Shown piece after piece: positions 1 through 42,035 of a stretch of 42,035 nt of DNA (position 1 is the stretch's first letter; each line of letters opens with the position of its first letter). The notes under the pieces are model-generated. The model did no database searches. It was given only the letters and a program-made list of their open reading frames with translations, and was not told where the DNA came from. Origin of the DNA: a virus; the IMG/VR virus record IMGVR_UViG_3300047469_000099, positions 1 through 42,035 of that record; one strand, written 5' to 3'. A program made the position numbers and the translations under genes.

Positions 1-321
1 TTGGGGCACCGTCAACCGCAGATTGTCGCCGAGGATCTGGTAACCAAATTCGATCTTGCACGGATCGGACGACGGCGGAAAGAAGCCTAGGGGGCGATCG
101 TTGTATTTCGCGACGATCAGCCGCCCCCAATCCGACGGCAATGCGACGAGATCCTTCGACGGGGTAATTGCGAAGCTCTCGCGCCGCGAACGCGTCTTGA
201 TATTACGGTCGAAATTCCGCTCCGCGAGCATGATGAAGTCGGGGAAAAGCGCTGTCAGATCGCCGCGCTTGAGCCACTTTGCCATCGACGCCTGCAAATC
301 CGAATAAGACTGAATCGCCAT
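1..321 (-). CDS. Head-tail adaptor protein, SU10-type, partial (C-terminus beyond window), left copy
   Basis: Only the first 107 residues are in the window. The protein begins MAIQSYSDLQASMAKW and stays open to the window edge. It closely matches the complete 192-residue protein at 36651-37229. Proteins of this kind connect the portal ring to the tail nozzle in SU10-like podoviruses; I assign the family from sequence resemblance and from its place before the nozzle gene. The ATG at 319-321 is preceded by AAGGAG. The nucleotide sequence differs from the right copy at about one base in ten, so this is a variant rather than an exact duplicate. Confidence 0.7.
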   Translation of the reverse strand, partial: MAIQSYSDLQASMAKWLKRGDLTALFPDFIMLAERNFDRNIKTRSRRESFAITPSKDLVALPSDWGRLIVAKYNDRPLGFFPPSSDPCKIEFGYQILGDNLRLTVPQ

Positions 322-427
322 TTTTGCTATACTCCTTTCGTGGCCCTACTGTGTAGACACCCGGAGGCTGGCGAAAGCTGGCTCCAGCGCTCGGCAACGA
401 GTAGTTCTGGACGATCCCCGGGCACAG

Positions 428-1144
428 TCAGGGCCCTTTCTTTTTTTTGCGGCCGTCGCCGCGCGGAATGACGGAAAACAGTTCCGGCTTCCCAGAAGGG
501 CTGCTGTTCAATACAGCTGTGTCATTGACAGGCACACCACTCTCGTTGAGGCGCTTCGCCTGGTTCTGTAATACCGGACTGCGGCCGCCTGTGACCACCA
601 CCGACTGATCCGACATACCGCTCTGAATCTGCTGCACCAGGTCGTCGATGCCGTACGGCGGGTCCTGTTCTGTCACGCGGCTGTTGTAATGGTGCGTGCC
701 CTTATAGAACACGTCCGGGCTATCGAATTCGGGCATGCCTAGCTGGCTGCGTGCCTTGTTGATCGCCTGGAATTGCTCCGGAGTGAGCGACCCGATGTCG
801 ATTGGCCTCGCCCGATCGCCGCGCTGAAGCGCCTCTAGCAGCGTGCGCGCCTCGCCCAGCGCGCCTGGCTTTAGTGGCCCGGCGAGCATCGGAATCAAGC
901 CGCCAACGGCGTCCGCTGTAGTGCCGGGCTGGTCGGACAATATCCCTGCGTCGCGCATCTTCTGAGCAATCCAGTCCGAGCCGCCGACCGGGTTCGTGAC
1001 CTGCGGAAAGCCTTGCGGCAAGAACTGGCCTGCCGTCGCCATCAGCGCATTGATCGCATCCGCCGACAGATCGACAGGCGCGCCCAGCGCATCAGCCGTG
1101 TAGCCGCGTGAGGCGCCGCCCATGAGCGCGTCGAGTATGCCCAT
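428..1144 (-). CDS. Virion-associated protein with toxin-like C-terminal domain (left copy)
   Basis: 238 residues. The N-terminal part (about 1-105) has a Gly/Ala-rich start with GYTADALGAPVDLSADAIN and a PVGGSDWIAQKM segment, resembling segments I associate with phage virion proteins. The C-terminal part (about 115-238) contains FYKGTHHYNSRV, IDDLVQQIQSG and ends ELFSVIPRGD plus a Lys tail. This layout recalls the PBECR group (phage barnase/EndoU/colicin E5-D/RelE-like nucleases), but I cannot confirm the fold. The right copy (37344-38048) keeps the N-terminal part and the ending but differs strongly between them, as toxin tips do. The start overlaps the stop of the HslV-like gene (TGATG). 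Function otherwise unknown. Confidence 0.6.
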   Translation of the reverse strand: MGILDALMGGASRGYTADALGAPVDLSADAINALMATAGQFLPQGFPQVTNPVGGSDWIAQKMRDAGILSDQPGTTADAVGGLIPMLAGPLKPGALGEARTLLEALQRGDRARPIDIGSLTPEQFQAINKARSQLGMPEFDSPDVFYKGTHHYNSRVTEQDPPYGIDDLVQQIQSGMSDQSVVVTGGRSPVLQNQAKRLNESGVPVNDTAVLNSSPSGKPELFSVIPRGDGRKKKKGP

Positions 1145-1578
1145 CAGTTACTCGCGCAGTTGGCATCGAAGGCCATGACTTCGCCACCGGTGAAAACGTC
1201 ATACAGCGCGGCAATCTCGATGGCCTCGCGCGCGGTGCGACCGCAATGCATGGCCGCCATCGCAAAATCGCGGCCACTTCCCATCGCGTGAAACGACTCG
1301 TGGAGGGGAAGTCGGATCAGCATTTCCTCGAGCCGGAAGGCTTCACCCGTGGGAGCTATAAGCAGCCCAGCAAAGTCATCCGCTTTCGGCTTAAGCGCAC
1401 TCGGATCGGCCTTCTCCAGCCACTCCTTCACCGCACGAATTTGCCCATAGTCACCGGATCCGGCGAAGAGCGCGCCGTCAGGCAGCGCGAACAGTTTCAC
1501 GGCCCTGTATGGCATGCCACTGGACGTCGCCCGAGTATCGGCCGCAAGCGTCTTGCCGTCCCACGCGATCGTCGTCAT
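1144..1578 (-). CDS. HslV/proteasome-beta-like Ntn-hydrolase (left copy)
   Basis: 144 residues beginning MTTIAWDGKTLAADTRAT. Removing Met leaves an N-terminal Thr, the catalytic nucleophile of HslV and proteasome beta subunits. The AAD motif (D14), a Lys at about 28 (YRAVKLF) and the glycine loop FAGSGDYG fit the Asp17, Lys33 and Gly47 positions of that family. It is shorter than bacterial HslV (about 175 residues), and no HslU ATPase gene is in the window. The ATG at 1576-1578 overlaps the stop of the upstream gene as ATGA, which fixes the start. It lies among the head genes, so a role in processing virion or host proteins is possible, but the target is unknown. Confidence 0.72.
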   Translation of the reverse strand: MTTIAWDGKTLAADTRATSSGMPYRAVKLFALPDGALFAGSGDYGQIRAVKEWLEKADPSALKPKADDFAGLLIAPTGEAFRLEEMLIRLPLHESFHAMGSGRDFAMAAMHCGRTAREAIEIAALYDVFTGGEVMAFDANCASN

Positions 1579-1865
1579 ACCTTGCCCGGCGCCACGCGGA
1601 AATAAGCCATGCCCGGATCGTTGCAGATCGCCTTGATGTGCGCCGGATCGCGAAAGAACTCCTGCCACGTCATGCCGCGCGTGTAGCAGTACTGTTCGAT
1701 CACGATGCCGGGAATGTTCGCGACGTGGCGCATGTCCTTGTCGCCGAACTGCTGCGTCGCGCGCAGCTCGGCGTTGTGATCGAGCAAACCGTCGAAGCGC
1801 GCGGTGTGCACTACGACCGTTTCGTCTTTGTCCGGGTTCGCGATGAATTCGGTCGTCGAGTGCAT
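1575..1865 (-). CDS. Conserved phage protein of unknown function, 96 aa (left copy)
   Basis: 96 residues with the segments TEFIANPDKDETVVVHTARFD and VANIPGIVIEQYC, no membrane segment and no motif I recognise. It sits between the 142-residue protein and the HslV-like peptidase, in the stretch where phages often encode small head-completion proteins. The start has AAGGG upstream. The change from diverged to identical repeat sequence falls inside this gene: its 5' half matches the right copy exactly and its 3' half differs (EQYCYTRGMTW here, EAYCFRIGITW in the right copy). Confidence 0.7.
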   Translation of the reverse strand: MHSTTEFIANPDKDETVVVHTARFDGLLDHNAELRATQQFGDKDMRHVANIPGIVIEQYCYTRGMTWQEFFRDPAHIKAICNDPGMAYFRVAPGKV

Positions 1866-1873
1866 ACCGACCC

Positions 1874-2302
1874 TTACAGCAGCGCTTTCGCGCGGTCGAT
1901 CACAGCGATGATCTCGCTCTTGCCCATGTGCACGATGCCTTCGAGATCATCCAGCATCGTTTGCAGAATGGACTTGTGATCCGGCTCAGCGACGACGGCG
2001 GAGCCGGTGGCATCTGCGGCAGAGGTCGACGCCGGCGACTGCGCGGCCGAGACACCACCAGCAGCGTTTCCCTCGTCAGCCGTAACCAAGCCTGTCGCAG
2101 ACACACCCGGGGCCGCGGCAGCCGATGCACCGTTTCCCGCGTCGACCGGCGCGAGCAGCGAGTCGGCGCTCGGATCGACCGTCGCGCCGTTGGCGATCAA
2201 CCCCGGCACGCCACCACTGTCGATAACCACGATGCCGACGAGCTGCTCAGCTTCGCTCGCAAAGATGATCTTCGTATCCGGGTTGTAGTAGAGCCTTTCC
2301 AT
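1874..2302 (-). CDS. Small head-region protein of unknown function, 142 aa (left copy)
   Basis: 142 residues. The first 50 (MERLYYNPDTKIIFASEAEQLVG onward) look folded; the middle is an Ala/Gly/Ser-rich linker; the end (about 108-142) is a predicted helix, HKSILQTMLDDLEGIVHM. A folded domain, flexible linker and terminal helix would suit a capsid decoration or completion protein, but no family is recognised. GGAG precedes the ATG at 2300-2302. It is the first gene after the terminator that follows the coat gene, so it is probably expressed by read-through at a lower level than coat protein. Identical to 38772-39200. Confidence 0.7.
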   Translation of the reverse strand: MERLYYNPDTKIIFASEAEQLVGIVVIDSGGVPGLIANGATVDPSADSLLAPVDAGNGASAAAAPGVSATGLVTADEGNAAGGVSAAQSPASTSAADATGSAVVAEPDHKSILQTMLDDLEGIVHMGKSEIIAVIDRAKALL

Positions 2303-2319
2303 TTCGAATCTCCGTGCGT

Positions 2320-2348
2320 CAAATGAAAACAGCCCCTACGCGAGGGGC
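2320..2348 (-). terminator. Intrinsic terminator after the coat gene (left copy)
   Basis: On the minus strand the stem GCCCCT/AGGGGC (2332-2337 with 2343-2348, loop of five) is followed by TGTTTTCATTT. It begins about 15 bases after the coat stop codon, and probably lowers transcription of the downstream genes relative to coat. The same hairpin is at 39218-39246. Confidence 0.78.
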
Positions 2349-2362
2349 CGTTCCCGTTGCAA

Positions 2363-3319
2363 TTACGACAGGTCGCGAACCTGCGCGGAACTGGCTTCGT
2401 TCCGGGCTTCGAGCGTGCCTTCCCAGGTGATCTGGAAGTTGCGCGCGTCGCCCGTCTTCGCCAGTTCTTCCTTGTCGAACGGGCGCAACGTGGCGAGAGC
2501 CCACAGGTCAGTATCGACCGCGTACGCCGCGTTGTCCGGCGTTGCTACGCCACCCATGACGCGATTCGGGATGATCGACACGTTGCCGAAGTCGCCCGCA
2601 TAGACCGCAAAGGCCGAGTTGAGCACCGCGGCTTTGCCGGTTCCGGCCACCTCGACCTGACGGACTGCGTTGCCCACGAACGTCGACGTCACCTGCTTGT
2701 CGACCGGACGGACGTGCAACTGGCTGACGTTGCCGCCAGCGTTGTACGCGCCGAGCAACGCGGCTTTCAGCAACGGCTCGGCCCACGCGCGATTCGTACC
2801 CGCGACCGGCGCGGTATTCGTCGACGGAACCGGCGCGGCCGAACCTGTGCCACCGCTGAAGTTGGTCGCGATCCAGCCCTTCAGGCCACGCATCGTGCGG
2901 GCGACGGACGCAGAGCCAACAATCGAGGTGGCGTTCATGATGGTGGCCGCTTCGATGTCCTTCTTCAGCTCGACAGCCTTCTTCGCCGACAAACGGGCGA
3001 TTTCCTTGGGGCCGGCCTTCTTCACTGCTTCCTGCGTGCCCGACACGCTGAACGTGTCCTGCACGATCTGGCAGCGGTTGCCGATCCGAACAGTCGGGTT
3101 CTGTGCGGTATAGGTCGCATCAGCACCTTCGACTGCTGCATTAGCTGCGTTCGGCGCGCGCAGCGCGTCGGTTTGCCACTCGTGCAGCACAGCATCAGCG
3201 CCCACCTTTTCGAGGGCCGACGTGAACGGCGTATCGGCCGGGCTGATCATGAAGACCTTGTCGATGAGGTCTTCGCGGTTACCTACGGTCGAGTAGGTCG
3301 TGACGGTATTGGCGGGCAT
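2363..3319 (-). CDS. Major capsid protein, SU10/DUF5309-like (left copy)
   Basis: 318 residues. The N-terminus (TYSTVGNREDLIDKVFMISPADTPF) matches the conserved opening of the DUF5309/SU10 major head protein family: a short lead, then NREDL, then SPxDTPF. The rest is mixed alpha/beta as expected of an HK97-fold coat protein. Its position directly after a scaffold-like gene and its own terminator (2320-2348) support a highly expressed coat gene. The ATG at 3317-3319 has AAGGAG seven bases upstream. It forms the capsid shell around the DNA. Identical to 39261-40217. Confidence 0.85.
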   Translation of the reverse strand: MPANTVTTYSTVGNREDLIDKVFMISPADTPFTSALEKVGADAVLHEWQTDALRAPNAANAAVEGADATYTAQNPTVRIGNRCQIVQDTFSVSGTQEAVKKAGPKEIARLSAKKAVELKKDIEAATIMNATSIVGSASVARTMRGLKGWIATNFSGGTGSAAPVPSTNTAPVAGTNRAWAEPLLKAALLGAYNAGGNVSQLHVRPVDKQVTSTFVGNAVRQVEVAGTGKAAVLNSAFAVYAGDFGNVSIIPNRVMGGVATPDNAAYAVDTDLWALATLRPFDKEELAKTGDARNFQITWEGTLEARNEASSAQVRDLS

Positions 3320-3351
3320 TTTGCTCGCTCCTTATGCGAAGTCCGGCGCGC

Positions 3352-4335
3352 TTATTCGAAGAAAGCGGCCAGCGTATTTACGGATGGAGCCGCCTTGAAT
3401 GCCTTCCCAGCGTTGGCCTTCGCCATCTGGTTTCTGTTCGGCACCTGGCTTGCTCCGGGTCGCTCGGTGCGCGGCGCGGGTCGCACGCCTTGTTGCACCG
3501 CTTTTTGCTTGGCCTTTGCCTGGTCGTACAGCATTGCCTTGCGGGCAATCAGAAACACCTCGGCGGTATCCATTTGGGCCTGCATTTCTGCGGTAATCCC
3601 TTGGGTTTCGAGGTATTTGCCGACCGCCTGTGCGCCTTCCGCTGCCTTCGCCGGGTCCTTCCATTCCGGGATAGCCTCAACGATTTTCTGCGTCGCTTCG
3701 GTGAGACGTCCCTGGAGGCTTGCCGCCTGCTGCTCTGCGTTGCGCTGTTCGAGTGTCTGCTGCACCTGCATGGCCTCATGCAACTGCGCCTGGCGCTGCT
3801 CCCACTGATGCCGGATCCGAACATACTGATTCGGGTCTTGGGCCAGCAGAGCTTCCCAGTTTGGCTGTTGCGAAGCCATCAAGGCTTGCGACTCTCGAAT
3901 GTAGTGCTCCAGTACTGTGCCCAACTGCTTTTCCCGTTCGGGAACCTGGGCTAACTTGGCCTCGGCGTCCTTCCGGATAGCCGCGGCTTCTTCAAACTTG
4001 CGATTCGCGCCGTGATATTTCGACGCTTCAGCGATCAGTTCAGATTGCGTCTTCGTGATCGTCTTGCCGTCGCCGACAGGAATCTCGAAAACCGGATCCT
4101 GCCCGCCGTCTTCGCCGTCACCCTGCTCGCCCTCATCGGCGTTTTCATCGCCGGAGAGAACCAACTCGTCACCGGCGGCGGCATTGTCACCGCCAGCCGC
4201 ATGCGTGCTGCCATCGTCGTCTTCACCGTCTCGCGCTTCGAACATCGCTTCGAGCGACGGACCACCGCCGTCATCATCGGCAGCATGAAACATGAACGAC
4301 AGCAGAACACGCTTGAGCAACTTGGAAATATTCAC
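3352..4335 (-). CDS. Capsid scaffolding protein (left copy)
   Basis: 327 residues from a GTG at 4333-4335. I chose this start because AGGAG lies six bases before it; the TTG six bases earlier would abut the AGGAG. Residues about 15-80 are very acidic (Asp/Glu/Gly), the middle (about 105-220) is a long charged, Gln-rich coiled coil, and the C-terminus is basic and Pro-rich. This is the usual plan of podovirus scaffolds, which line the procapsid and leave before or during packaging. It lies between portal and coat, the standard place. No protease motif is visible in it. Identical to 40250-41233. Confidence 0.78.
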   Translation of the reverse strand: MNISKLLKRVLLSFMFHAADDDGGGPSLEAMFEARDGEDDDGSTHAAGGDNAAAGDELVLSGDENADEGEQGDGEDGGQDPVFEIPVGDGKTITKTQSELIAEASKYHGANRKFEEAAAIRKDAEAKLAQVPEREKQLGTVLEHYIRESQALMASQQPNWEALLAQDPNQYVRIRHQWEQRQAQLHEAMQVQQTLEQRNAEQQAASLQGRLTEATQKIVEAIPEWKDPAKAAEGAQAVGKYLETQGITAEMQAQMDTAEVFLIARKAMLYDQAKAKQKAVQQGVRPAPRTERPGASQVPNRNQMAKANAGKAFKAAPSVNTLAAFFE

Positions 4336-4395
4336 GCACAACTCCTATTCGCTCGCTTCAGCGCGGCGGTTTTCAGGGAATATAAGACTTCACCA

Positions 4396-6864
4396 CTACT
4401 GCATCAACTGTTCAGCAATGCGAAACTCGCGGTTGATCGCCTGCTGTTCGTCGGATTGCTGATCTTGCTGAATAGCGTTGTTCATCGCGACTTCAGTAGC
4501 GGGGTCTGTAACCTTGGCTGCGAACGCAGCTTTCTCACGATCCGCAGCCAGTTGCGCATAGAACTTCTCGCGCTCCCAGGCAAGATTTTGCGTAGCGGCA
4601 TCGCGTTCGCGCTTGTCGAGCAACGCTTCGTGCTGCGTCTGCAACTGCGCTTTCAGATTGGTCTCGCGCACGCTTTGCTGTTCCTGCTGCTGAATCTTCG
4701 CGGCGTCCGTCTGTTGCTGCAGCTGTGCCTTGGTCGTCTCGATCTGGACCTGACCGTTGATGAGCTGTTGCTGCGGATCTGGATGCGGCGGCTGCGGCGG
4801 CGGCGCTTGCGGCGGCGAGAAGAACTGTGACGGCTCGCCAAGCTGCAAAGCCTGCACGAGCTCGGTCGCCGACTTGTAGATGTTCTGCGGCGTCACCGTG
4901 CTCGCAACGGCAGGATTCGGGCTCTGCGCGATGGTCTGCTGCACACCGAGCAGATTGGTCAACTGCTGAACACGCCGGCCGCTGTCGCCGGTCCCGGTCC
5001 CCACGTCGGCTTTCATCGAATACTGGTTGCGCCACACGCGCGGATCAACGTCGACCCAACTGCCGTTGAGTTGGAACGTCATGTTCTTGTCCTGATAGTT
5101 CGCGAGCAGCTTCTGGATCAACCGGAACAGATCTTTCACGCCGGTCTCGGCGAACGTCCGCGCGATCAGCTTCACGCGCAGATCGGCGCGCTGCGTGATG
5201 TTTTCAATACCGGTCGCCGTATGGTTCAGCGTGTCGCTGTCGAGCCCCTGACTGTATTTCGTGATGCCAGTGCGTTCCTGCGACATGCTGTCGACGTACT
5301 GCAGCAACTGATATGCGCCGGCGCTGTCCGACATACCTTGCTGGATCGGCCCGATTGCATTCATGCCGGCGCCGCCCTTTACGCGAACCGGTCGGCCCGG
5401 CGCGTTATTCAGGAAGTCGGACATGTTGACCTTGGTCTCGTCGACCCACGAACGCCCGTTGATCTGAATGTTCATGTTGTCCTGCAGCCCGCGAAGCATT
5501 CCAGTCTTCAGCTTCTGGATCGGCATAGCGAGATCGGCAATCGATCTACCATGCAGCAAGCCGGGGATGCGCACCGGGCACAGCACAGCATACGGCGGCC
5601 CGTCGCACACCTCGTTATCGAGGATGACGTCGCCGGCCTTGGTGATCTTGCGCCACTCCGAAATGCCATCGCCGTCGCAGTCGATCGGCAGATAGCATTC
5701 GTACAGCCAGACCTTGCGCTGCGACTCGTCGCCGTTGCCATCGTCTTCGACCATCGTGGCGAATGCGTCCTCGAGCGACGTGCGCGCCTGCGAAAGCCCA
5801 TTGAGCGTGGCCGTTTCTGCGCTCGGATCGGACGAAATGTCGTCGACATTCGCGTAACCGGCAGCGCGCAACTCCGAAATCGACTTCTTGACGCGATCCG
5901 CACAAAAGCCGTCGCGGATCCGGCGCGACGTCTGCGCGACAAGGAAGTCTTCGGAGTTCAGCGCTTCGATCGCCACGTGGCCGGTCTTCTTCGAGATCGT
6001 CAGAACAACGTTGTGCAGCTGCGGCAGCGCCGAGACGTCAACCGGCGGCGGTGGCTGCATCGGTGCCTGCGGTTGCGGCGGCTGGCCCGACGGCATGGCA
6101 CCAGACGGCGGCATACCGGCACCCGGTGCCGGGTTCGGATGTGCGACTTGAGCCTGATAGGCCTGCTGAGCCTGCTGGAACTGCATCATCGTGGCGCGCT
6201 CGGCAGCTGGATCGACGTAGCTAGTGATGCTGGTGATCGTCACGCCGGCGTCGTTCGTGAGGATGGCCAGTTGCTCGTCAGTCAGACCGGTGTACTCTTC
6301 ACGCGTCGTCTCGGTTTCTTCTTCCCACCAGCATTTCGCAACGCCGATCTTGAAGATCAACGCCGTCTTGAACCAGTCCATGAACACTTCAAAACCGGGG
6401 TTCTGCTCGTTCACGACGTGATTAGCCAAGTGTGTCATCTGCTCGGCGCCCTGCTCGTCGCTGGGTTTGCGCGGGCAGAACTTCACTGGCTTTCCAGAGG
6501 CGAAGAAAATCTCCATGAGCGACGGCATCAACCACTCGACCTGATCGCTCACGACGGTGTCGACGACTGCAGACCGCCCTTCGACTTCGGGAGCCGCCAA
6601 ATCACCCTCAGCAAGGCCGAGGTAGTACTGCATCGCCTTTTCCTGCTCTTTGGCAATGCCAGTCCCTAGCCAGCTCTGCGACTGCGAGATATGACTCTCG
6701 ACGATTGCCGAGATTTCCTCGTCAGACATCTTGACAGGCGCTTCACCATCGCTGCCCATCTGCGTGATCTGCTGGACCGGAACACCCGGCTCCGGAACGC
6801 CGGCCGGCGATGAGTCAGGCAGCATCGACAGCGCGACTTGCTCGAGTAGTTGGTTTTGGTCCAT
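4396..6864 (-). CDS. Portal protein, SU10/phiEco32-like
   Basis: 822 residues, within the range of podovirus portals. The N-terminal 60 residues are acidic and Gln/Met-rich. The core includes MDWFKTALIFKIGVAKCWWEE and a long helical region, with a Pro-rich insert at about 235-270. The last ~130 residues are a Gln/Ala-rich coiled coil, probably the barrel reaching into the capsid. Twelve copies would form the DNA channel at one capsid corner. The start overlaps the large-terminase stop (TAATG), tying translation of the two. The C-terminal 247 residues are encoded again, identically, at 41294-42035. Confidence 0.85.
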   Translation of the reverse strand: MDQNQLLEQVALSMLPDSSPAGVPEPGVPVQQITQMGSDGEAPVKMSDEEISAIVESHISQSQSWLGTGIAKEQEKAMQYYLGLAEGDLAAPEVEGRSAVVDTVVSDQVEWLMPSLMEIFFASGKPVKFCPRKPSDEQGAEQMTHLANHVVNEQNPGFEVFMDWFKTALIFKIGVAKCWWEEETETTREEYTGLTDEQLAILTNDAGVTITSITSYVDPAAERATMMQFQQAQQAYQAQVAHPNPAPGAGMPPSGAMPSGQPPQPQAPMQPPPPVDVSALPQLHNVVLTISKKTGHVAIEALNSEDFLVAQTSRRIRDGFCADRVKKSISELRAAGYANVDDISSDPSAETATLNGLSQARTSLEDAFATMVEDDGNGDESQRKVWLYECYLPIDCDGDGISEWRKITKAGDVILDNEVCDGPPYAVLCPVRIPGLLHGRSIADLAMPIQKLKTGMLRGLQDNMNIQINGRSWVDETKVNMSDFLNNAPGRPVRVKGGAGMNAIGPIQQGMSDSAGAYQLLQYVDSMSQERTGITKYSQGLDSDTLNHTATGIENITQRADLRVKLIARTFAETGVKDLFRLIQKLLANYQDKNMTFQLNGSWVDVDPRVWRNQYSMKADVGTGTGDSGRRVQQLTNLLGVQQTIAQSPNPAVASTVTPQNIYKSATELVQALQLGEPSQFFSPPQAPPPQPPHPDPQQQLINGQVQIETTKAQLQQQTDAAKIQQQEQQSVRETNLKAQLQTQHEALLDKRERDAATQNLAWEREKFYAQLAADREKAAFAAKVTDPATEVAMNNAIQQDQQSDEQQAINREFRIAEQLMQ

Positions 6865-8123
6865 TACACAGTCACCACTGATTTGAAGTTGAGCGAGCCG
6901 CCCCAGTTCGAGCGGTTGTTATGCATCTTCGGCGCGTGCACCGATTCGTACCGCACCATGTCGCAGGCATGCGAATGCTCATCGTGCAGCGGATGGCCGG
7001 TCTTCGTGCGTTGGTAGCGCTTCAGATGCTCGATCAGCGGCGCGCAGCGCGTCTTGTCCATGTAGGTCTTGGGCAACGACTCGCGCACCAGCCGAATGCC
7101 GTGCTCTACAGGGATGTTGTCGACGATCTCGACCTCCCAGCCGAACGCCTCCATCTGCTCTTTCATCGAGACGCCGTTCGCTTCCATGCGTTTGGCTTCG
7201 GCGTCGTGAGGCATAACGATGATCGCGCCGTCGTAGCCGCGCGCTCTGAACTCGTCGCTGAACCACTTCAGGCCGACGCGATGGTTCTCGACGAAGTCGA
7301 TATATCGGCGCTCGCCTGCTACCTGCTGCACAACACCGGCGGACGTGTAATCGTTGAATCCCAAGTCCATGATGATGTACACGTTCAGTTGCTCGTCGTG
7401 CACCATGTTCAGCATCCGGCCTTCCCGCTCCATCCGTGCAATTTCGTCGAAGTAGATCGCGCCTTCGACGGCCGGAAGTGGCTCGCCAAGCCAAACATGT
7501 CGATGCATCACAGGATCCAGAGCCGCCATGTGCTGCTCCTGCCGCCGCAATACATCCGGAAACCACGGATTCTTGTCAAAGTTGACGAACAGGTTCGCGC
7601 ACTCAGGCAAACCCTTTTTCACGATCAGATCGAAAATGAAATCCGTCTCTAACTCCGGGTTCCAGCTCAAGATGATCTGCGAGCCTGCTGCGCGGATCGT
7701 CGGGTCTAGCTTGTTCCAGCTTTTCGCCGAAAGGTATTGCGCCTCTTCGATCCAGCACCAATCGATATTCGCCATCGACTTGACGGCCGACACGCTAAGA
7801 TCGTTCAGGCCTTTGAAGATGAATGCTCCGCCGATCTTCGGCCGTATCTCGTCGCGCAGAATGTCGAACTGAGACACAAGTCCCAATTCCTCGATCTCAG
7901 CAACGATCTGCGCGTAGACGGATTCCTTGATCGAATCCTGTATCTCGCGGGTGCACAAACCACGCAGCGGCTTTTCGAGCGCTTTCAGTACCCGCGAACG
8001 AGCCACGTTCTTCGTCTTACCCGAGCCGCGGCCACCGCGCAGACTGATGTAACGCCATTGCTCCTCGAACAGCACCCGCGACCACTTGGGCATTTCCGCT
8101 TCAGTCCAACCGCCTTTCGCCAC
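6864..8123 (-). CDS. terL: Terminase large subunit (Terminase_3 family)
   Basis: 419 residues from a GTG. Walker A is GGRGSGKT (30-37). Walker B with the catalytic acid is IDWCWIEEA, and the coupling motif is ILSWNP. The C-terminal RNase-H-like nuclease domain has IIMDLGFNDYTSAG (first Asp) and HSHACDMVRY (last Asp). It pumps DNA into the procapsid through the portal and cuts the concatemer. It follows the small proteins and small terminase and overlaps portal by one base. All key residues are present. Confidence 0.95.
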   Translation of the reverse strand: MAKGGWTEAEMPKWSRVLFEEQWRYISLRGGRGSGKTKNVARSRVLKALEKPLRGLCTREIQDSIKESVYAQIVAEIEELGLVSQFDILRDEIRPKIGGAFIFKGLNDLSVSAVKSMANIDWCWIEEAQYLSAKSWNKLDPTIRAAGSQIILSWNPELETDFIFDLIVKKGLPECANLFVNFDKNPWFPDVLRRQEQHMAALDPVMHRHVWLGEPLPAVEGAIYFDEIARMEREGRMLNMVHDEQLNVYIIMDLGFNDYTSAGVVQQVAGERRYIDFVENHRVGLKWFSDEFRARGYDGAIIVMPHDAEAKRMEANGVSMKEQMEAFGWEVEIVDNIPVEHGIRLVRESLPKTYMDKTRCAPLIEHLKRYQRTKTGHPLHDEHSHACDMVRYESVHAPKMHNNRSNWGGSLNFKSVVTV

Positions 8124-34085: not shown

Positions 34086-34121
34086 TGGCTAGAATTCTAG
34101 CCACAAGTTTAGGAATGTCAA
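34086..34121 (-). promoter_or_regulatory. Promoter under an 18-bp palindrome
   Basis: On the minus strand TTGACA (34121-34116), 16 bases, TAGAAT (34099-34094): a perfect -35 and a five-of-six -10. The -10 lies inside the perfect palindrome TGGCTAGAATTCTAGCCA (34086-34103), which extends further with CTTG/CAAG and one bulge. A protein bound there would block RNA polymerase. The start of transcription would be near 34087. Confidence 0.72.
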
Positions 34122-34134
34122 CGAATCGTGGTTG

Positions 34135-34413
34135 CTAATCGCGAATGACAATGCTGGCTAGCCATATCGCGACCGGTGCCGCAAAAATAATGGAAACTAC
34201 CCAGTTACCGCCGATGAGAAAGATGACCGCCGCGGCAAAAAGCAGGACCATGATCGAGCGCAGACCGCGACCCACGGAAACTGCGCCGCGCACGCCGGCA
34301 TCGGCAACAACTGCAGCACCGGCAGCCACGTCACTGGGCTTTCTGAGGTAGTAAATGAAGAGTGCCGCCAGAATGACAAGCATCACAACAAAAGCAGGGG
34401 GAAACGTAATCAT
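34135..34413 (-). CDS. Small membrane protein, 92 aa
   Basis: 92 residues beginning MITFPPAFVVMLVILAALF. One N-terminal membrane segment (about 5-24), a short soluble Ala/Gly/Val-rich loop, and a long hydrophobic end (SIMVLLFAAAVIFLIGGNW, then SIIFAAPVAIWLASIVI) that fits two more. GAGAAG lies before the ATG. No family recognised; it is too far from the lysis genes to call it a holin. It is the last gene before the palindrome-controlled promoter. Confidence 0.65.
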   Translation of the reverse strand: MITFPPAFVVMLVILAALFIYYLRKPSDVAAGAAVVADAGVRGAVSVGRGLRSIMVLLFAAAVIFLIGGNWVVSIIFAAPVAIWLASIVIRD

Positions 34414-34457
34414 GGTCTTCTCGTGAGTAGTTATTCGTATCCGAATAATAGACCAAC

Positions 34458-34889
34458 TCACGCTGCGTTCAAGGGGTCAACGTCACATTCAAACGTGACA
34501 TGCCGCAGTCTGAAGCCGTGCCGCGGCGCGACCTTCTCCCAGCCGCGCCGCGAAGAACCGAACGTCAGTTTGAGCGCCGGGTGAGGCGTCGCGTTGCGCG
34601 CGATCATCATAAGATCGTCTCGAAAGACCGACATCGGATCGAAACCGGGCCGGGCGTAGAGTAGCCAGATATGCAGGTCGCGGCCAAGCAGCCGCAGGAC
34701 CATCCAGCCGATCCGCTCGTCGTCGACGTGCAGCAGGAAAAGCGTGGCATCGCCTGCTCGACACATCGCGTAGGCATCTTCCGGGATAAATCCGTCTGGC
34801 GCTTCCACGATCGCAACTTCGTCTCTGATCAGCGGCCATACCCGTTGCAGGTCAGCAGGGGCGATTGCCTCTAGTTTCCGGTCAGGCAT
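34458..34889 (-). CDS. GNAT-like phage protein, 143 aa
   Basis: 143 residues beginning MPDRKLEAIAPADLQRVW. The sequence runs FIPEDAYAMCRAGDATLFLLH, GWMVLRLLGRDLHIWLLYARPGFD, LKLTFGSSRRGWEKVAPRHGF: the strand order of an N-acetyltransferase (GNAT) fold, ending in the usual GWEKVAxRxGF pattern. The acetyl-CoA loop (Q/RxxGxG/A) is not clear, so it may be a structural relative. GGAG stands seven bases before the chosen ATG; two earlier ATGs (34895, 34904) are possible. Similar proteins occur near tail genes of podoviruses. Confidence 0.6.
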   Translation of the reverse strand: MPDRKLEAIAPADLQRVWPLIRDEVAIVEAPDGFIPEDAYAMCRAGDATLFLLHVDDERIGWMVLRLLGRDLHIWLLYARPGFDPMSVFRDDLMMIARNATPHPALKLTFGSSRRGWEKVAPRHGFRLRHVTFECDVDPLNAA

Positions 34890-35188
34890 CGGCATGCTCT
34901 CCATGTCCCCGGCGCGCCGGCGCTAACGCAGATCCACCCTAGCACGACGTATTTTGCGCCCGTCGTCCCCAGTTCGGTAGGGGAACTGTTCCTGATGAAA
35001 TCACCTTGGGCGTATGCCACCACGCCGCCAGCGGCCGGCGGCGCCGTCGTCGCGTTAGTCGCGCCCGCAATCTGTCCTTCTGACGCGGCGTTGAGCTGTC
35101 GAATGATCGGGTCCATTGCGCGCTGCAAAGCGGCACCGAGTGCCGGGAGAGACGCGGGCGCGCCGATGTTCCAATTTGTGATGCGCAT
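34871..35188 (-). CDS. Small tail-associated protein, 105 aa
   Basis: 105 residues beginning MRITNWNIGAPASLPALGA. A short helix is followed by an Ala/Thr/Gly linker and a C-terminal module AQGDFIRNSSPTELGTTGAKYVVLGWICVSAGAPGTW, a form seen at the ends of phage tail and fibre proteins. Its TAATG junction with the nozzle gene and its place suggest a fibre-docking or tail protein. Function inferred only. Confidence 0.62.
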   Translation of the reverse strand: MRITNWNIGAPASLPALGAALQRAMDPIIRQLNAASEGQIAGATNATTAPPAAGGVVAYAQGDFIRNSSPTELGTTGAKYVVLGWICVSAGAPGTWRACRCLTGN

Positions 35189-36651
35189 TAGATACTCCCC
35201 GCCGGCATGATCCGCGGCACAGCGCCGAGAATTTCGTGATTGCCGGTGAAATTGAGCGTTACCTGGGCATAGCGACAGGAGAAATCGGCCGGCAATTCGC
35301 CGTCGTACATATCGCCGAGACTTTGGACCGTCGATGCCGCGCCGAGAGCAGCCACCGCGGATGCCGAACCCGAGCATGCCGTAGGCTGCGCGGCGAACCG
35401 AGGCAGAATGCCCTGCACGTACATGTAATCGCTGTCATCTCCGAACCATCCGCTCGTGAGCGAACTGTTTTCCGAAACACCGCTCAGCGCCTGGAGTGTA
35501 TGGGTCGTATCGATGATTGCGGGAAGCTCGCTCGCCTGGCTCCAGAACGAACTGTTGTAGGGAATTTGCGGGAGCGAGTCCCATGTCGAAACATTCGGCA
35601 GGCTGCCGAGCACATCCCATGTGATCTGTCCGGAAACGTACGCAACGGCCGCTTCGATCTTCGCATCGGCGCGGCCGAATTTGCCGGTTCGATAGTTCAA
35701 TACGAGGCACTTGTCGGGCACCGGCTGGCCTGAACTGCTTGAACAGAAGTACCAGAAAACGAGCGAGTTTTCCTTGTCGTGATAGCTCTCGACGCGATCG
35801 CGGTTTAGCTGCGACCAGTTGGCGTATAGCCATTCCTTCACCTCGTCGCCGATCGGCGTCACGGCCGACCCGTCATATTGATACACCTGTGCGTCGCTGC
35901 CCAGGAACACATGTCCGGTTCCGATCGCGACTACTGCCTCCTGACAGGGCGTGCCGACCACTGGCGAGATCTGGCTGAAGCCCCAGATAACCGGTGTCCC
36001 CTGATAGCTGCCATAGAACATTGAGTCCTTCTTGTACGCGACGATGTTCGTTCCGAGCACGCGGCCCGCCGTGATCTTGCCGGGCGTGTCGACGATGCGG
36101 CCTTTCGCACACTGCGTGGCCTGGCTCGGCGTCCACACGGTCTGGTCATAGATCCCACTGCAGAACCAACCGTCCGGACGATGTCCATCCGTCAAATCTG
36201 TCGTATCGAATGCGAACACAAAGCCCTGCGTCACCTCGACGATCAGCGCGGCCGGCGCGCCAGCGATGGAAGCGAAATTGCCTGCGCTGATCGACTGTTG
36301 CAGCGGATCCGCACCGTTCGACGCGATCGTGGCGTTGCCCAATTGGGCATAGCGCCAGCGATTTGCCCCGCCGGAATAAGCCATCCCGGACACGTCATTC
36401 TGTGCGGAGCCGACGATCTCGTACAGCTTCGTGGCCGTTCCAGCGATCGTGCGATACGAGCCCGACAGCAACTCTGTTGAAACTGCGCCAGTCACTTCGC
36501 TGGGGAAAGGCGCGGCTCCGATGCCAGACGCCGACGGCGCGGCCTTCATCCCACGCAGCGTAGGAACCATGTTCACACAATCGAGCACTGCGCCCGGCGT
36601 CGTCGGATCGACGCTCGGCGTGAAGCCGCGGAATGGAATGGTTACAGCCAT
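35188..36651 (-). CDS. Tail nozzle/stabilisation protein, P22 gp10-like
   Basis: 487 residues beginning MAVTIPFRGFTPSVDPTTP. Repeated beta-strand blocks with Trp/Tyr and Gly turns (GVFVFAFDTTD-like, GTPVIWGFSQISPVVGTPCQEAVVAIG-type strands, ending FWSQASELP and YMYVQGILPRF) fit a beta-propeller tail nozzle as in P22 gp10 and SU10-like phages. It follows the adaptor gene (TAATG junction), the usual order. It would close the tail channel and carry the fibres. Identity of the family is by resemblance; no catalytic motif is seen. Confidence 0.65.
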   Translation of the reverse strand: MAVTIPFRGFTPSVDPTTPGAVLDCVNMVPTLRGMKAAPSASGIGAAPFPSEVTGAVSTELLSGSYRTIAGTATKLYEIVGSAQNDVSGMAYSGGANRWRYAQLGNATIASNGADPLQQSISAGNFASIAGAPAALIVEVTQGFVFAFDTTDLTDGHRPDGWFCSGIYDQTVWTPSQATQCAKGRIVDTPGKITAGRVLGTNIVAYKKDSMFYGSYQGTPVIWGFSQISPVVGTPCQEAVVAIGTGHVFLGSDAQVYQYDGSAVTPIGDEVKEWLYANWSQLNRDRVESYHDKENSLVFWYFCSSSSGQPVPDKCLVLNYRTGKFGRADAKIEAAVAYVSGQITWDVLGSLPNVSTWDSLPQIPYNSSFWSQASELPAIIDTTHTLQALSGVSENSSLTSGWFGDDSDYMYVQGILPRFAAQPTACSGSASAVAALGAASTVQSLGDMYDGELPADFSCRYAQVTLNFTGNHEILGAVPRIMPAGSI

Positions 36652-37229
36652 TAGCCGGCCCTCATCACAAGGGGTTGGTCTTCTGCCGTCTTGGACTCGC
36701 TATCGTCATCCACGAAATCGTCGATTGCCTGGTCGCGGCGTGCCATCCATTTTTGCTGGCTCGCCGTGTCGCGAATATAGTCGGCGGCTTCGGCAAGTGC
36801 GCCAAAGAAATAAATGTCGGGCGCATCCTCGAGCAGCCAATTGCTTTGGTTCGTGTCGGAGAGCGCCTCGATCGCCGTGTAGTACTCGACGAACAAACGC
36901 TGGCCAAGTTGCGGCACCGTCAGCCGTAGGTTGTCGCCGAGGATCTGGTAGCCAAATTCGATCTTGCACGGGTCGGACGACGGCGGAAAGAAACCGAGCG
37001 GCCGATCGTCATATTTCGCGACGATCAATCGCCCCCAATCCGCCGGCAACGCGACGAGATCCTTCGACGGGGTGATTGCGAAGCTCTCCCGCCGCGAGCG
37101 AGTCTTGATCTTGCGGTCGAAGTTCCGCTCCGCGAGCATGATGAAGTCGGGGAAAAGCGCTGTCAGATCGCCGCGCTTGAGCCATTTCCCCATCGACGTC
37201 TGCAAATCCGAATACGACTGAATGGTCAT
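36651..37229 (-). CDS. Head-tail adaptor protein, SU10-type (right, complete copy)
   Basis: 192 residues beginning MTIQSYSDLQTSMGKWLKR. The form FPDFIMLAERNFDRKIKTRSRRE, then GYQILGDNLRLTVP and LFVEYYTAIEAL is that of podovirus adaptor proteins joining portal and nozzle. The ATG at 37227-37229 has GGGAG upstream; a longer frame has no site. The left copy (1-321) is a variant of the same gene with different residues in its first 107 (for example MTIQS/MAIQS, TSMGK/ASMAK). Confidence 0.75.
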   Translation of the reverse strand: MTIQSYSDLQTSMGKWLKRGDLTALFPDFIMLAERNFDRKIKTRSRRESFAITPSKDLVALPADWGRLIVAKYDDRPLGFFPPSSDPCKIEFGYQILGDNLRLTVPQLGQRLFVEYYTAIEALSDTNQSNWLLEDAPDIYFFGALAEAADYIRDTASQQKWMARRDQAIDDFVDDDSESKTAEDQPLVMRAG

Positions 37230-37320
37230 TTCTATTACGCTCCCAGCCTGTGATACACTTGTTCCTGCATTGGCGCTGCCGGACAGGAGTTGAAGGACGG
37301 TTCCCGGAGGTCGATGCAAC

Positions 37321-37344
37321 AAGCCCGCCCACAGCGGGCTTTTT
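37321..37344. terminator. Hairpin after the toxin-like gene (right copy only)
   Basis: AAGCCCGC (37321-37328) and GCGGGCTT (37334-37341) with loop CCACA. On the plus strand the stem runs into five T, but all nearby genes are on the minus strand, where TTGTTG follows instead. It may end transcription weakly after the gene at 37344-38048. The left copy has no such hairpin in its spacer. Confidence 0.45.
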
Positions 37345-38048
37345 CATTTCCCGTTTGGCTTTTTGAAATCGCCCTTTGGAATGACGGAGAAAAGTTGGGG
37401 ATTCTTCGAGCCTGACGTTTCAAACGTCACCGTATCGCGCACGTTGTTGCCATAACCGTCCGCCCGTGGCGTCTGGTTCACGAGATTTGGTCTGCCGAAT
37501 CGGTCAACCGTGACCTGTGATGTCGGCGATAGCCCGTTTTCGATCTGCGCAAGCATGTCGTCGATCGAATAGCCGTCCGCCGACCTGCTCGCATAGTGAT
37601 GCGTCCCGCGATACCAGAGATCAGCGCCAACGGCCGGTTGTCCGTTTGCTGCACGCGCTGAGTTCAACTGCGTTAGCTGCCGGTCCGTCAACGAACCAAT
37701 GTCAATTGGCTTGGGCTTGCCTCCAGCCGCAATCGCCTCGAGCAATGTGCGCGCTTCGCCGAGTGCGCCAGGCTTAACAGGCCCGGCAAGCAACGGAATA
37801 AGACCGCCGACCGCATCCGCAGCGGTGCCCGGCTGATCGGACAGCATGCCGGCGTCGCGCATCTTCTGCGCGATCCATGCCGAGCCGCCGACCGGGCTAC
37901 TGATCTGTGGGAACCCTTGGGGGAGAACCTGGCCGGCAGACGCGGTCAACGCATTGATCGCATCCGCAGACAGATCGACGGGCGCGCCCAGCGCATCGGC
38001 CGTGTATCCGCGTGAGGCTCCGCCCATGAGCGCGTCGAGTATTCCCAT
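37344..38048 (-). CDS. Virion-associated protein with toxin-like C-terminal domain (right copy)
   Basis: 234 residues. The first ~105 are close to the left copy (GYTADALGAPVDLSADAIN, PVGGSAWIAQKM). The C-terminal part reads LWYRGTHHYASRS, YSIDDMLAQIENGLSP, NLVNQTPRADGYGNNVRDTV and ends PQLFSVIPKGD; several of these blocks are quite different in the left copy. If this is a PBECR-type nuclease domain, the two copies could differ in activity or immunity. It overlaps the HslV-like gene as TGATG. Confidence 0.6.
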   Translation of the reverse strand: MGILDALMGGASRGYTADALGAPVDLSADAINALTASAGQVLPQGFPQISSPVGGSAWIAQKMRDAGMLSDQPGTAADAVGGLIPLLAGPVKPGALGEARTLLEAIAAGGKPKPIDIGSLTDRQLTQLNSARAANGQPAVGADLWYRGTHHYASRSADGYSIDDMLAQIENGLSPTSQVTVDRFGRPNLVNQTPRADGYGNNVRDTVTFETSGSKNPQLFSVIPKGDFKKPNGK

Positions 38049-38476
38049 CAGTTACTCGCGCAGTTGGCATCGAAGGCCATGACTTCGCCACCGGTGAAAA
38101 CGTCATACAGCGAGGCAATCTCGACGGCCTCGCGGGCGCTGCGACCGCAATGCATTGCAGCCATCGCAAAATCTCGGCCGCTGCCAATAGCATGGAATCG
38201 CTCATGAATCGGAAGGCGGATCAATGTTTCCTCGAGCCTGAACGCCTCGCCAGTCGGCGTCACGAACAGACCCGCGAAATCATCCGTTTTCGGCATCTGT
38301 GTGATCATGTGTTCAAGCCATTCTTTTACCGCGCACACCTGCCCATAGTCGCCCGATCCAGCGAAAAGCGAGCCGTCAGACAACACGAACATTTTCACGG
38401 CCTTGTACGGCATACCGCTCGACGTCGCCTGGGTGTCTGCCGCCAGCGTCTTGCCATCCCATGCGATCGTCGTCAT
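38048..38476 (-). CDS. HslV/proteasome-beta-like Ntn-hydrolase (right copy)
   Basis: 142 residues, beginning MTTIAWDGKTLAADTQATSS. It keeps Thr2, Asp14, Lys28 and the AGSGDYGQ loop of the left copy, but differs elsewhere (for example EHMITQMPKTDDFAGLFV against EKADPSALKPKADDFAGLLI) and is two residues shorter. Conservation of the catalytic set across two diverged copies supports a working enzyme. ATGA overlap with the gene upstream. Confidence 0.72.
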   Translation of the reverse strand: MTTIAWDGKTLAADTQATSSGMPYKAVKMFVLSDGSLFAGSGDYGQVCAVKEWLEHMITQMPKTDDFAGLFVTPTGEAFRLEETLIRLPIHERFHAIGSGRDFAMAAMHCGRSAREAVEIASLYDVFTGGEVMAFDANCASN

Positions 38477-38763
38477 ACCTTGCCCGGCGCCACGCGGAAA
38501 TAAGCCATGTCCGGATCGTTGCAGATCGCCTTGATGTGCTTCGGATCTCGGAAGAATTCCTGCCACGTGATGCCGATGCGGAAGCAATACGCCTCGATCA
38601 CGATGCCGGGGATATTGGCGACGTGCCGCATGTCCTTGTCGCCAAATTGCTGCGTCGCGCGCAGCTCGGCGTTGTGATCGAGCAAACCGTCGAAGCGCGC
38701 GGTGTGCACTACGACCGTTTCGTCTTTGTCCGGGTTCGCGATGAATTCGGTCGTCGAGTGCAT
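38473..38763 (-). CDS. Conserved phage protein, 96 aa (right copy)
   Basis: Same length as the left copy (1575-1865). Its first ~38 codons are identical at the DNA level (38648-38763) and the rest diverged, so this gene carries the mosaic boundary of the repeat. Function unknown. Confidence 0.7.
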   Translation of the reverse strand: MHSTTEFIANPDKDETVVVHTARFDGLLDHNAELRATQQFGDKDMRHVANIPGIVIEAYCFRIGITWQEFFRDPKHIKAICNDPDMAYFRVAPGKV

Positions 38764-38771
38764 ACCGACCC

Positions 38772-39200
38772 TTACAGCAGCGCTTTCGCGCGGTCGATCA
38801 CAGCGATGATCTCGCTCTTGCCCATGTGCACGATGCCTTCGAGATCATCCAGCATCGTTTGCAGAATGGACTTGTGATCCGGCTCAGCGACGACGGCGGA
38901 GCCGGTGGCATCTGCGGCAGAGGTCGACGCCGGCGACTGCGCGGCCGAGACACCACCAGCAGCGTTTCCCTCGTCAGCCGTAACCAAGCCTGTCGCAGAC
39001 ACACCCGGGGCCGCGGCAGCCGATGCACCGTTTCCCGCGTCGACCGGCGCGAGCAGCGAGTCGGCGCTCGGATCGACCGTCGCGCCGTTGGCGATCAACC
39101 CCGGCACGCCACCACTGTCGATAACCACGATGCCGACGAGCTGCTCAGCTTCGCTCGCAAAGATGATCTTCGTATCCGGGTTGTAGTAGAGCCTTTCCAT
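38772..39200 (-). CDS. Small head-region protein, 142 aa (right copy)
   Basis: Identical to 1874-2302: folded N-terminal part, Ala/Gly/Ser linker and C-terminal helix. It lies just after the coat terminator, as in the left copy. Confidence 0.7.
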   Translation of the reverse strand: MERLYYNPDTKIIFASEAEQLVGIVVIDSGGVPGLIANGATVDPSADSLLAPVDAGNGASAAAAPGVSATGLVTADEGNAAGGVSAAQSPASTSAADATGSAVVAEPDHKSILQTMLDDLEGIVHMGKSEIIAVIDRAKALL

Positions 39201-39217
39201 TTCGAATCTCCGTGCGT

Positions 39218-39246
39218 CAAATGAAAACAGCCCCTACGCGAGGGGC
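39218..39246 (-). terminator. Intrinsic terminator after the coat gene (right copy)
   Basis: Identical to 2320-2348: stem GCCCCT/AGGGGC (39230-39235 with 39241-39246) followed on the minus strand by TGTTTTCATTT. Confidence 0.78.
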
Positions 39247-39260
39247 CGTTCCCGTTGCAA

Positions 39261-40217
39261 TTACGACAGGTCGCGAACCTGCGCGGAACTGGCTTCGTTC
39301 CGGGCTTCGAGCGTGCCTTCCCAGGTGATCTGGAAGTTGCGCGCGTCGCCCGTCTTCGCCAGTTCTTCCTTGTCGAACGGGCGCAACGTGGCGAGAGCCC
39401 ACAGGTCAGTATCGACCGCGTACGCCGCGTTGTCCGGCGTTGCTACGCCACCCATGACGCGATTCGGGATGATCGACACGTTGCCGAAGTCGCCCGCATA
39501 GACCGCAAAGGCCGAGTTGAGCACCGCGGCTTTGCCGGTTCCGGCCACCTCGACCTGACGGACTGCGTTGCCCACGAACGTCGACGTCACCTGCTTGTCG
39601 ACCGGACGGACGTGCAACTGGCTGACGTTGCCGCCAGCGTTGTACGCGCCGAGCAACGCGGCTTTCAGCAACGGCTCGGCCCACGCGCGATTCGTACCCG
39701 CGACCGGCGCGGTATTCGTCGACGGAACCGGCGCGGCCGAACCTGTGCCACCGCTGAAGTTGGTCGCGATCCAGCCCTTCAGGCCACGCATCGTGCGGGC
39801 GACGGACGCAGAGCCAACAATCGAGGTGGCGTTCATGATGGTGGCCGCTTCGATGTCCTTCTTCAGCTCGACAGCCTTCTTCGCCGACAAACGGGCGATT
39901 TCCTTGGGGCCGGCCTTCTTCACTGCTTCCTGCGTGCCCGACACGCTGAACGTGTCCTGCACGATCTGGCAGCGGTTGCCGATCCGAACAGTCGGGTTCT
40001 GTGCGGTATAGGTCGCATCAGCACCTTCGACTGCTGCATTAGCTGCGTTCGGCGCGCGCAGCGCGTCGGTTTGCCACTCGTGCAGCACAGCATCAGCGCC
40101 CACCTTTTCGAGGGCCGACGTGAACGGCGTATCGGCCGGGCTGATCATGAAGACCTTGTCGATGAGGTCTTCGCGGTTACCTACGGTCGAGTAGGTCGTG
40201 ACGGTATTGGCGGGCAT
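39261..40217 (-). CDS. Major capsid protein, SU10/DUF5309-like (right copy)
   Basis: Identical in DNA and protein (318 residues) to 2363-3319. The absence of even silent changes in a pair of copies whose downstream genes have diverged points to recent exchange or to an assembly overlap. Confidence 0.85.
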   Translation of the reverse strand: MPANTVTTYSTVGNREDLIDKVFMISPADTPFTSALEKVGADAVLHEWQTDALRAPNAANAAVEGADATYTAQNPTVRIGNRCQIVQDTFSVSGTQEAVKKAGPKEIARLSAKKAVELKKDIEAATIMNATSIVGSASVARTMRGLKGWIATNFSGGTGSAAPVPSTNTAPVAGTNRAWAEPLLKAALLGAYNAGGNVSQLHVRPVDKQVTSTFVGNAVRQVEVAGTGKAAVLNSAFAVYAGDFGNVSIIPNRVMGGVATPDNAAYAVDTDLWALATLRPFDKEELAKTGDARNFQITWEGTLEARNEASSAQVRDLS

Positions 40218-40249
40218 TTTGCTCGCTCCTTATGCGAAGTCCGGCGCGC

Positions 40250-41233
40250 TTATTCGAAGAAAGCGGCCAGCGTATTTACGGATGGAGCCGCCTTGAATGC
40301 CTTCCCAGCGTTGGCCTTCGCCATCTGGTTTCTGTTCGGCACCTGGCTTGCTCCGGGTCGCTCGGTGCGCGGCGCGGGTCGCACGCCTTGTTGCACCGCT
40401 TTTTGCTTGGCCTTTGCCTGGTCGTACAGCATTGCCTTGCGGGCAATCAGAAACACCTCGGCGGTATCCATTTGGGCCTGCATTTCTGCGGTAATCCCTT
40501 GGGTTTCGAGGTATTTGCCGACCGCCTGTGCGCCTTCCGCTGCCTTCGCCGGGTCCTTCCATTCCGGGATAGCCTCAACGATTTTCTGCGTCGCTTCGGT
40601 GAGACGTCCCTGGAGGCTTGCCGCCTGCTGCTCTGCGTTGCGCTGTTCGAGTGTCTGCTGCACCTGCATGGCCTCATGCAACTGCGCCTGGCGCTGCTCC
40701 CACTGATGCCGGATCCGAACATACTGATTCGGGTCTTGGGCCAGCAGAGCTTCCCAGTTTGGCTGTTGCGAAGCCATCAAGGCTTGCGACTCTCGAATGT
40801 AGTGCTCCAGTACTGTGCCCAACTGCTTTTCCCGTTCGGGAACCTGGGCTAACTTGGCCTCGGCGTCCTTCCGGATAGCCGCGGCTTCTTCAAACTTGCG
40901 ATTCGCGCCGTGATATTTCGACGCTTCAGCGATCAGTTCAGATTGCGTCTTCGTGATCGTCTTGCCGTCGCCGACAGGAATCTCGAAAACCGGATCCTGC
41001 CCGCCGTCTTCGCCGTCACCCTGCTCGCCCTCATCGGCGTTTTCATCGCCGGAGAGAACCAACTCGTCACCGGCGGCGGCATTGTCACCGCCAGCCGCAT
41101 GCGTGCTGCCATCGTCGTCTTCACCGTCTCGCGCTTCGAACATCGCTTCGAGCGACGGACCACCGCCGTCATCATCGGCAGCATGAAACATGAACGACAG
41201 CAGAACACGCTTGAGCAACTTGGAAATATTCAC
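40250..41233 (-). CDS. Capsid scaffolding protein (right copy)
   Basis: Identical to 3352-4335, including the GTG start with AGGAG six bases upstream: acidic N-terminal region, Gln-rich coiled coil and basic end. Confidence 0.78.
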   Translation of the reverse strand: MNISKLLKRVLLSFMFHAADDDGGGPSLEAMFEARDGEDDDGSTHAAGGDNAAAGDELVLSGDENADEGEQGDGEDGGQDPVFEIPVGDGKTITKTQSELIAEASKYHGANRKFEEAAAIRKDAEAKLAQVPEREKQLGTVLEHYIRESQALMASQQPNWEALLAQDPNQYVRIRHQWEQRQAQLHEAMQVQQTLEQRNAEQQAASLQGRLTEATQKIVEAIPEWKDPAKAAEGAQAVGKYLETQGITAEMQAQMDTAEVFLIARKAMLYDQAKAKQKAVQQGVRPAPRTERPGASQVPNRNQMAKANAGKAFKAAPSVNTLAAFFE

Positions 41234-41293
41234 GCACAACTCCTATTCGCTCGCTTCAGCGCGGCGGTTTTCAGGGAATATAAGACTTCACCA

Positions 41294-42035
41294 CTACTGC
41301 ATCAACTGTTCAGCAATGCGAAACTCGCGGTTGATCGCCTGCTGTTCGTCGGATTGCTGATCTTGCTGAATAGCGTTGTTCATCGCGACTTCAGTAGCGG
41401 GGTCTGTAACCTTGGCTGCGAACGCAGCTTTCTCACGATCCGCAGCCAGTTGCGCATAGAACTTCTCGCGCTCCCAGGCAAGATTTTGCGTAGCGGCATC
41501 GCGTTCGCGCTTGTCGAGCAACGCTTCGTGCTGCGTCTGCAACTGCGCTTTCAGATTGGTCTCGCGCACGCTTTGCTGTTCCTGCTGCTGAATCTTCGCG
41601 GCGTCCGTCTGTTGCTGCAGCTGTGCCTTGGTCGTCTCGATCTGGACCTGACCGTTGATGAGCTGTTGCTGCGGATCTGGATGCGGCGGCTGCGGCGGCG
41701 GCGCTTGCGGCGGCGAGAAGAACTGTGACGGCTCGCCAAGCTGCAAAGCCTGCACGAGCTCGGTCGCCGACTTGTAGATGTTCTGCGGCGTCACCGTGCT
41801 CGCAACGGCAGGATTCGGGCTCTGCGCGATGGTCTGCTGCACACCGAGCAGATTGGTCAACTGCTGAACACGCCGGCCGCTGTCGCCGGTCCCGGTCCCC
41901 ACGTCGGCTTTCATCGAATACTGGTTGCGCCACACGCGCGGATCAACGTCGACCCAACTGCCGTTGAGTTGGAACGTCATGTTCTTGTCCTGATAGTTCG
42001 CGAGCAGCTTCTGGATCAACCGGAACAGATCTTTC
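41294..42035 (-). CDS. Portal protein, partial C-terminal part (right copy)
   Basis: The last 247 residues of the portal, identical to the matching part of 4396-6864, including the Pro-rich stretch and the Gln/Ala coiled coil. The 5' part lies beyond the window end. The frame is open to the edge, so this is a cut gene and not a pseudogene. Confidence 0.85.
   Translation of the reverse strand, partial: KDLFRLIQKLLANYQDKNMTFQLNGSWVDVDPRVWRNQYSMKADVGTGTGDSGRRVQQLTNLLGVQQTIAQSPNPAVASTVTPQNIYKSATELVQALQLGEPSQFFSPPQAPPPQPPHPDPQQQLINGQVQIETTKAQLQQQTDAAKIQQQEQQSVRETNLKAQLQTQHEALLDKRERDAATQNLAWEREKFYAQLAADREKAAFAAKVTDPATEVAMNNAIQQDQQSDEQQAINREFRIAEQLMQ

Follow-up and report, generated by a model that had tools for sequence, protein, structure and literature searches.

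The doubling of the head genes at the two ends of the 42,035-bp stretch of DNA analysed here (the window, an entire IMG/VR virus record classed as "linear") is, with high confidence, explained by the overlapping ends of a single circular genome of a temperate phage, 36,898 bp long, together with a stretch of a sister strain at the start. The contig has the form of a lasso: a lead-in of 1,749 bp is followed by a circle of 36,898 bp (one full turn, 1750–38647) and a 3,388-bp overlap. To produce it, the assembly would have run one full turn of the 36,898-bp circle plus 3,388 bp; the left end would carry 1,749 bp of the sister strain, with a different allele between the adaptor and head genes; and lead-in and circle would have been joined within a 451-bp tract common to both strains, leaving the head genes present once per genome. 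We infer that the switch has its origin in the assembly or in a recombinant variant actually present in the sample, and that no second prophage adjoins the first on one molecule.

The repeat itself is real. An earlier note on this DNA had claimed two head-gene copies at 1–5137 and 36909–42035, and both blastn of the window against itself and global alignment bore this out. Blastn paired 1–323 with 36909–37231 (90.7% identity) and 827–5137 with 37731–42035 (96.2% identity), with no match for 323–827 in this self-comparison. When left and right copies were aligned globally, identity per 100 columns was 90–93% over the first 300 columns and 41–52% over the next 500; up to ~1786 the bins ranged over 66–96%, and all later bins to the end were at 100%. 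Missed by the earlier note, and altering the interpretation, is the fact that 1750–5137 and 38648–42035 are the same 3,388 bp, with 0 mismatches and an offset of 36,898. Each "copy" thus consists of one identical portion and one allelic portion, 1–1749 versus 36909–38647, which is the sole part where the two differ. Other exact same-strand runs of at least 31 bases common to both copies measured 62, 69 and 47 bp.

The shared gene order was likewise upheld: an adaptor-like gene, a phrog_29528 gene, an HslV-type peptidase, the major head protein, the scaffold and the portal are found in both copies, the left adaptor-like gene being a partial piece recognised by DNA match only and the second portal copy being severed by the right end of the contig (residues 577–822 only). 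In the left copy, the overlap (1750–5137) encompasses a 142-aa protein (1874–2302) with no family assigned, the major head protein (2363–3319), the scaffold (3352–4341) and the 3′ part of the portal; the right copy (38648–42035) is delimited by its identity to this segment. Once the 1,749-bp lead-in is set aside, the contig has the identical ends of a circular or terminally redundant viral contig.

The origin of the lead-in could be traced through a relative, the sister phage G003. The lead-in (1–1749, allele A of the adaptor-head gene block) holds the adaptor homologue piece, the phrog_29528 gene (428–1144) and the HslV-type peptidase (1144–1668), as assigned with PHROGs, and is identical to G003 at 1749/1749 positions; against two other records, G001 and G004, the same stretch was 82–91% identical or unaligned. 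The equivalent block on the right (36909–38647, allele B) matched G001 and G004 at 1739/1739 positions. Counted from window base 1, the exact run with G003 was 2,200 bp long, i.e., it continued 451 bp into the overlap, and against the right copy G003 was exact over 451 bp starting at 38648. The two copies and G003 therefore all share the tract 1750–2200 without a difference, and because G003 and the circle are indistinguishable over these first 451 bp of the overlap, the strain switch must fall inside it. Judged from sequence, the lead-in is derived from a G003-like sister strain. The complete agreement of the two copies over the overlap is unexpected for two strains, since G003 and a further relative, G002, differ from it at 90 and 87 of the 3,388 sites, respectively (G001 at 0). 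The phrog_29528 alleles have crossed affinities: the allele A protein (428–1144) shares 69% identity with G006 and 80% with a Paraburkholderia prophage, and the allele B protein (37344–38048) shares 81% and 62%, respectively.

An IMG/VR search with the head protein returned 26 loci; 16 of the 26 were compared further, 7 of these being retrieved whole. G003 (IMGVR_UViG_3300047321_000164, 37,236 bp) is a unit-length genome that runs collinear with the circle and carries allele A, and its structural genes share 77–100% DNA identity with the window per 500-bp bin. Its record opens at window ~34231/34263, which differs from the opening of our contig and lies away from the integrase, with the 31 bp between its ends absent from the record; it is the one relative for which circular permutation was found. 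With all matches per protein retained, each of five structural proteins occupied a single place in 6/6 relatives tested (G003, G005, G006, G012 and the prophage regions of two isolate genomes), while the window has head protein and scaffold at two places and the portal at one and a part. Searching isolate genomes with the head protein gave 12 loci, two of which were followed up (L116 and L117), and the nearest named hosts of relatives were Paraburkholderia sp. Ac-20340, at 89% identity in this protein, and Burkholderia pseudomultivorans, at 71%. All matching phage records were below 60% identity, both for the portal (334 records) and for the head protein (199 records). The phage is thus a new representative of an established type, related to Paraburkholderia/Burkholderia prophages.

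Near-identical records from elsewhere retrace most of the circle, join included. G001 (data set 3300047322, 17,836 bp) corresponds to 28333–42035 with 2 mismatches and, going on, reproduces 1750–8741 exactly over 6,992 bp, so that it crosses from 42035 to 5138 and passes through the join (28333–42035 into 5138–8741). G004 (3300046533, 5,274 bp) corresponds to 34901–40174 with 1 mismatch; L096/G018 (3300046690, 9,972 bp), from a helicase search, to 6884–16855 with 2 mismatches; and G017 (3300046642, 13,620 bp), from a tail-fibre search, to 24138–37633, its locus L110 (10,324 bp) showing 3 mismatches. Summed from their coordinates, these four records tile 29,616/36,898 bp of the circle (80%), and they stem from four data sets, at most one of which could be the window's own. 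The earlier note had offered as its second option a circular genome with contig ends drawn from two different variants, and it is this option that the 3,388-bp overlap, the G003-identical lead-in, G001 and the single-copy G003 favour.

For 16856–24137, the interval with the integrase and attachment region, searches with the integrase, a 41-base pattern, the tail fibre and a methyltransferase-like protein gave no near-identical record, and its sequence is provided by our contig alone. The integrase search gave 56 loci, all at 46–64% identity and none near-identical (4/56 aligned: L040, L041, L053 and L055); the exact 41-base pattern at 20776, used in the search for a record closing the integrase gap, had no match; and the methyltransferase-like protein (21764–22738) had no relative in viral contigs. 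Aligned from the other searches were 6/13 helicase loci (L096, L098, L099, L102, L103 and L104) and 3/7 tail-fibre loci (L110, L112 and L114). A near-identity search of window 1–25000 against 50,697 phage records gave no match. One of the tail-fibre loci, L114, belongs to a 278,988-bp virus record (3300047322_001237) from the data set of G001 and has several consecutive matches to the tail-fibre stretch 24016–24175.

Two of the tiling records depart from the window near their own ends. G001 parts from it after 8741: its final 636/636 bp, from 17201 on, are those of G003, about the first 200 of them being common to the window as well, and its end is 61–76% identical per 100 columns to window 8838–9237. 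The shift to G003 sequence (L029, 17404–17836) follows a 240-bp tract common to all three (window 8502–8741). Either another joint like that of the window or genuine recombination in G001 would account for this departure. G017, near its contig end (L136, G017:1–3400), jumps from 37633 to 38194 without ~560 bp of allele B, its final 124 bp matching allele B past the jump, and no microhomology was found at this joint; the gap is either a deletion or a contig-end joint. Both G001 and G017 show that records of this phage group switch or break close to their ends, and neither yields a second prophage.

Within the circular reading, the switch might stem from a real recombinant, with two circular variants, carrying alleles A and B on the same backbone, both in the sample; the assembler would have entered the circle by one variant and left it by the other. 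We consider this possible, if on balance somewhat doubtful. Window bins at 98.2–100% identity to G003 (10001–11000 and 25501–28500) sit between bins at 77–96%, and other records repeat the same window sequence at those high-identity bins, which together show that the strains have exchanged DNA. Against it, no record was found in which allele A is followed by window bases beyond 2200: a search for allele A gave 4 hits, among which only G003 carries the full allele, the piece in G002 (92% over 49 residues) being cut by the end of that record.

The first choice of the earlier note was a different one, namely two related prophages lying in tandem at a single attachment site, with their meeting point near 20.9 kb and the left one leaving the window at 1, the right one at 42035. 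The gene order and the single integrase midway do fit such an arrangement, which gives the same gene order as a circle, and tandem prophages are on record, for example in Mycobacterium abscessus (PMC9934374). Nor does G001 by itself refute it, since the right-hand prophage would also continue past 42035. Yet two such prophages would have to be identical over 1750–5137, and to 8741 if G001 represents the right-hand one, and differ before that, although ~2.6% divergence from the overlap is seen in two other strains. They would be distinguishable over 1–1749 only and identical over the other 3,388 bp, and the G003 identity of the left one ends at 2200, within the identical part, where a change of strain would be needed. 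The one copy of each of the five structural proteins in 6/6 relatives tested argues in the same direction. We thus regard tandem prophages as very unlikely and rejected them as first choice on the 3,388-bp identity and the sudden divergence before 1750. The form such prophages would take, with 3.4 to 7 kb of their head genes homogenised by recombination while the alleles beside the head module were kept different, is one to which we assign very little probability.

The circular genome, which we prefer, contains a single tyrosine integrase midway along the contig, as the earlier note had it (19455–20735, minus strand; PF00589 and PF13356 over cut-off, phrog_1 E 2e-38). That note had also placed an attachment region near 20.9 kb, and the position of the integrase at the record end in G005, G006 and G012 puts the region at 20.7–21.0 kb; these record ends and the local repeats point to a presumed attP region at 20736–21018. 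In G003 the integrase is internal in its record. The 10-mer ACCTACGCTA is directly repeated (20776 and 20984), and 20989–21024 holds a perfect 13-nt inverted repeat; these might be integrase arm sites or a terminator. A comparison for the att core with four relatives gave one notable match, a 58-bp stretch of G006 that falls within the adjacent gene (21019–21390), the remaining matches being 11–19 bp and chance-like. The window integrase (19455–20735) had no tblastn match (E 1e-4) in G003, which is otherwise collinear, or in G005, G006 and G012; all four carry a different integrase, located either at the corresponding position or at a record end. This pattern suggests that the integrase module has been exchanged. 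Adjoining the attachment region, the methyltransferase-like protein shares 72% identity with a protein from the prophage region of Paraburkholderia sp. Ac-20340.

Family searches covered 40 proteins against PHROGs and 20 against Pfam. On the minus strand, the genes are ordered adaptor-like (36651–37322, SU10 adaptor family), phrog_29528 gene, HslV-type peptidase, 142-aa protein, major head protein, scaffold, portal and terminases, with the whole portal protein at 4396–6864 (phrog_1216, E 7e-139), the terminase large subunit at 6864–8123 (phrog_3717, E 6e-51) and the small subunit at 8727–9320 (phrog_51, E 3e-36). Further minus-strand genes encode a primase-like protein, a DNA helicase (12335–13876; phrog_16, E 6e-78), a ParB-like protein, the tyrosine integrase and the methyltransferase-like protein, and the remaining ones tail fibres, an endolysin, a transglycosylase-bearing protein and a DNA ejection protein. 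No tail sheath or tape measure was named by PHROGs among the 40 proteins, several of which have no family, and ARAGORN detected no tRNA or tmRNA in the window. From this gene content, the phage is probably temperate and podovirus-like in morphology. An HNH endonuclease gene (33499–34014; PF13392, phrog_99) has no counterpart at the corresponding site of G003 and G006, in which the flanking matches nearly abut; it looks like a homing endonuclease insertion. The earlier note had also stated that no host DNA separates the copies. This stood insofar as neither the 40 proteins searched against PHROGs nor the 20 against Pfam included a recognisable host gene; at 14.9–19.4 kb it amounts to absence of evidence, most of the small ORFs there being outside the scans or without a family match.

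Comparable end structures have been described. As the CheckV paper has it (PMC8116208), end repeats often arise from assembling circular or concatemeric genomes, and some IMG/VR contigs contain the same genome repeated. Like the direct terminal repeat contigs described there, the window has a repeat at both ends; unlike them, its overlap starts after a variant lead-in rather than at base 1, and the record is classed as linear. In the viralFlye paper (PMC8862349), one component is read as a pair of strains set apart by one diverged region (2.5 kb and 1.5 kb, respectively), a difference of about the size seen in the window, where, unlike in that component, the variants have been flattened into one contig. 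Tandem prophages are called unusual in the M. abscessus report mentioned above (PMC9934374). Among the relatives, the prophage region of Paraburkholderia sp. Ac-20340 (NZ_JAAGPR010000006.1, L116) shares with the window a head protein at 89% and the order from terminase to tail fibres, but lies inside a 439,705-bp host contig and has an integrase without a match to that of the window. G003, although collinear with the window, has a different integrase and lacks the HNH gene at 33499–34014.

Taken as overlapping ends, the doubling is most likely not a feature of the phage genome, and as such it is unimportant: one genome has been read slightly more than once round, an ordinary assembly effect. 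It does call for caution, as the record is classed as linear though it apparently holds a complete genome, and its length overstates that genome by 5.1 kb. Were the tandem reading true instead, the window would document gene conversion that had occurred in nature between two adjacent prophages.
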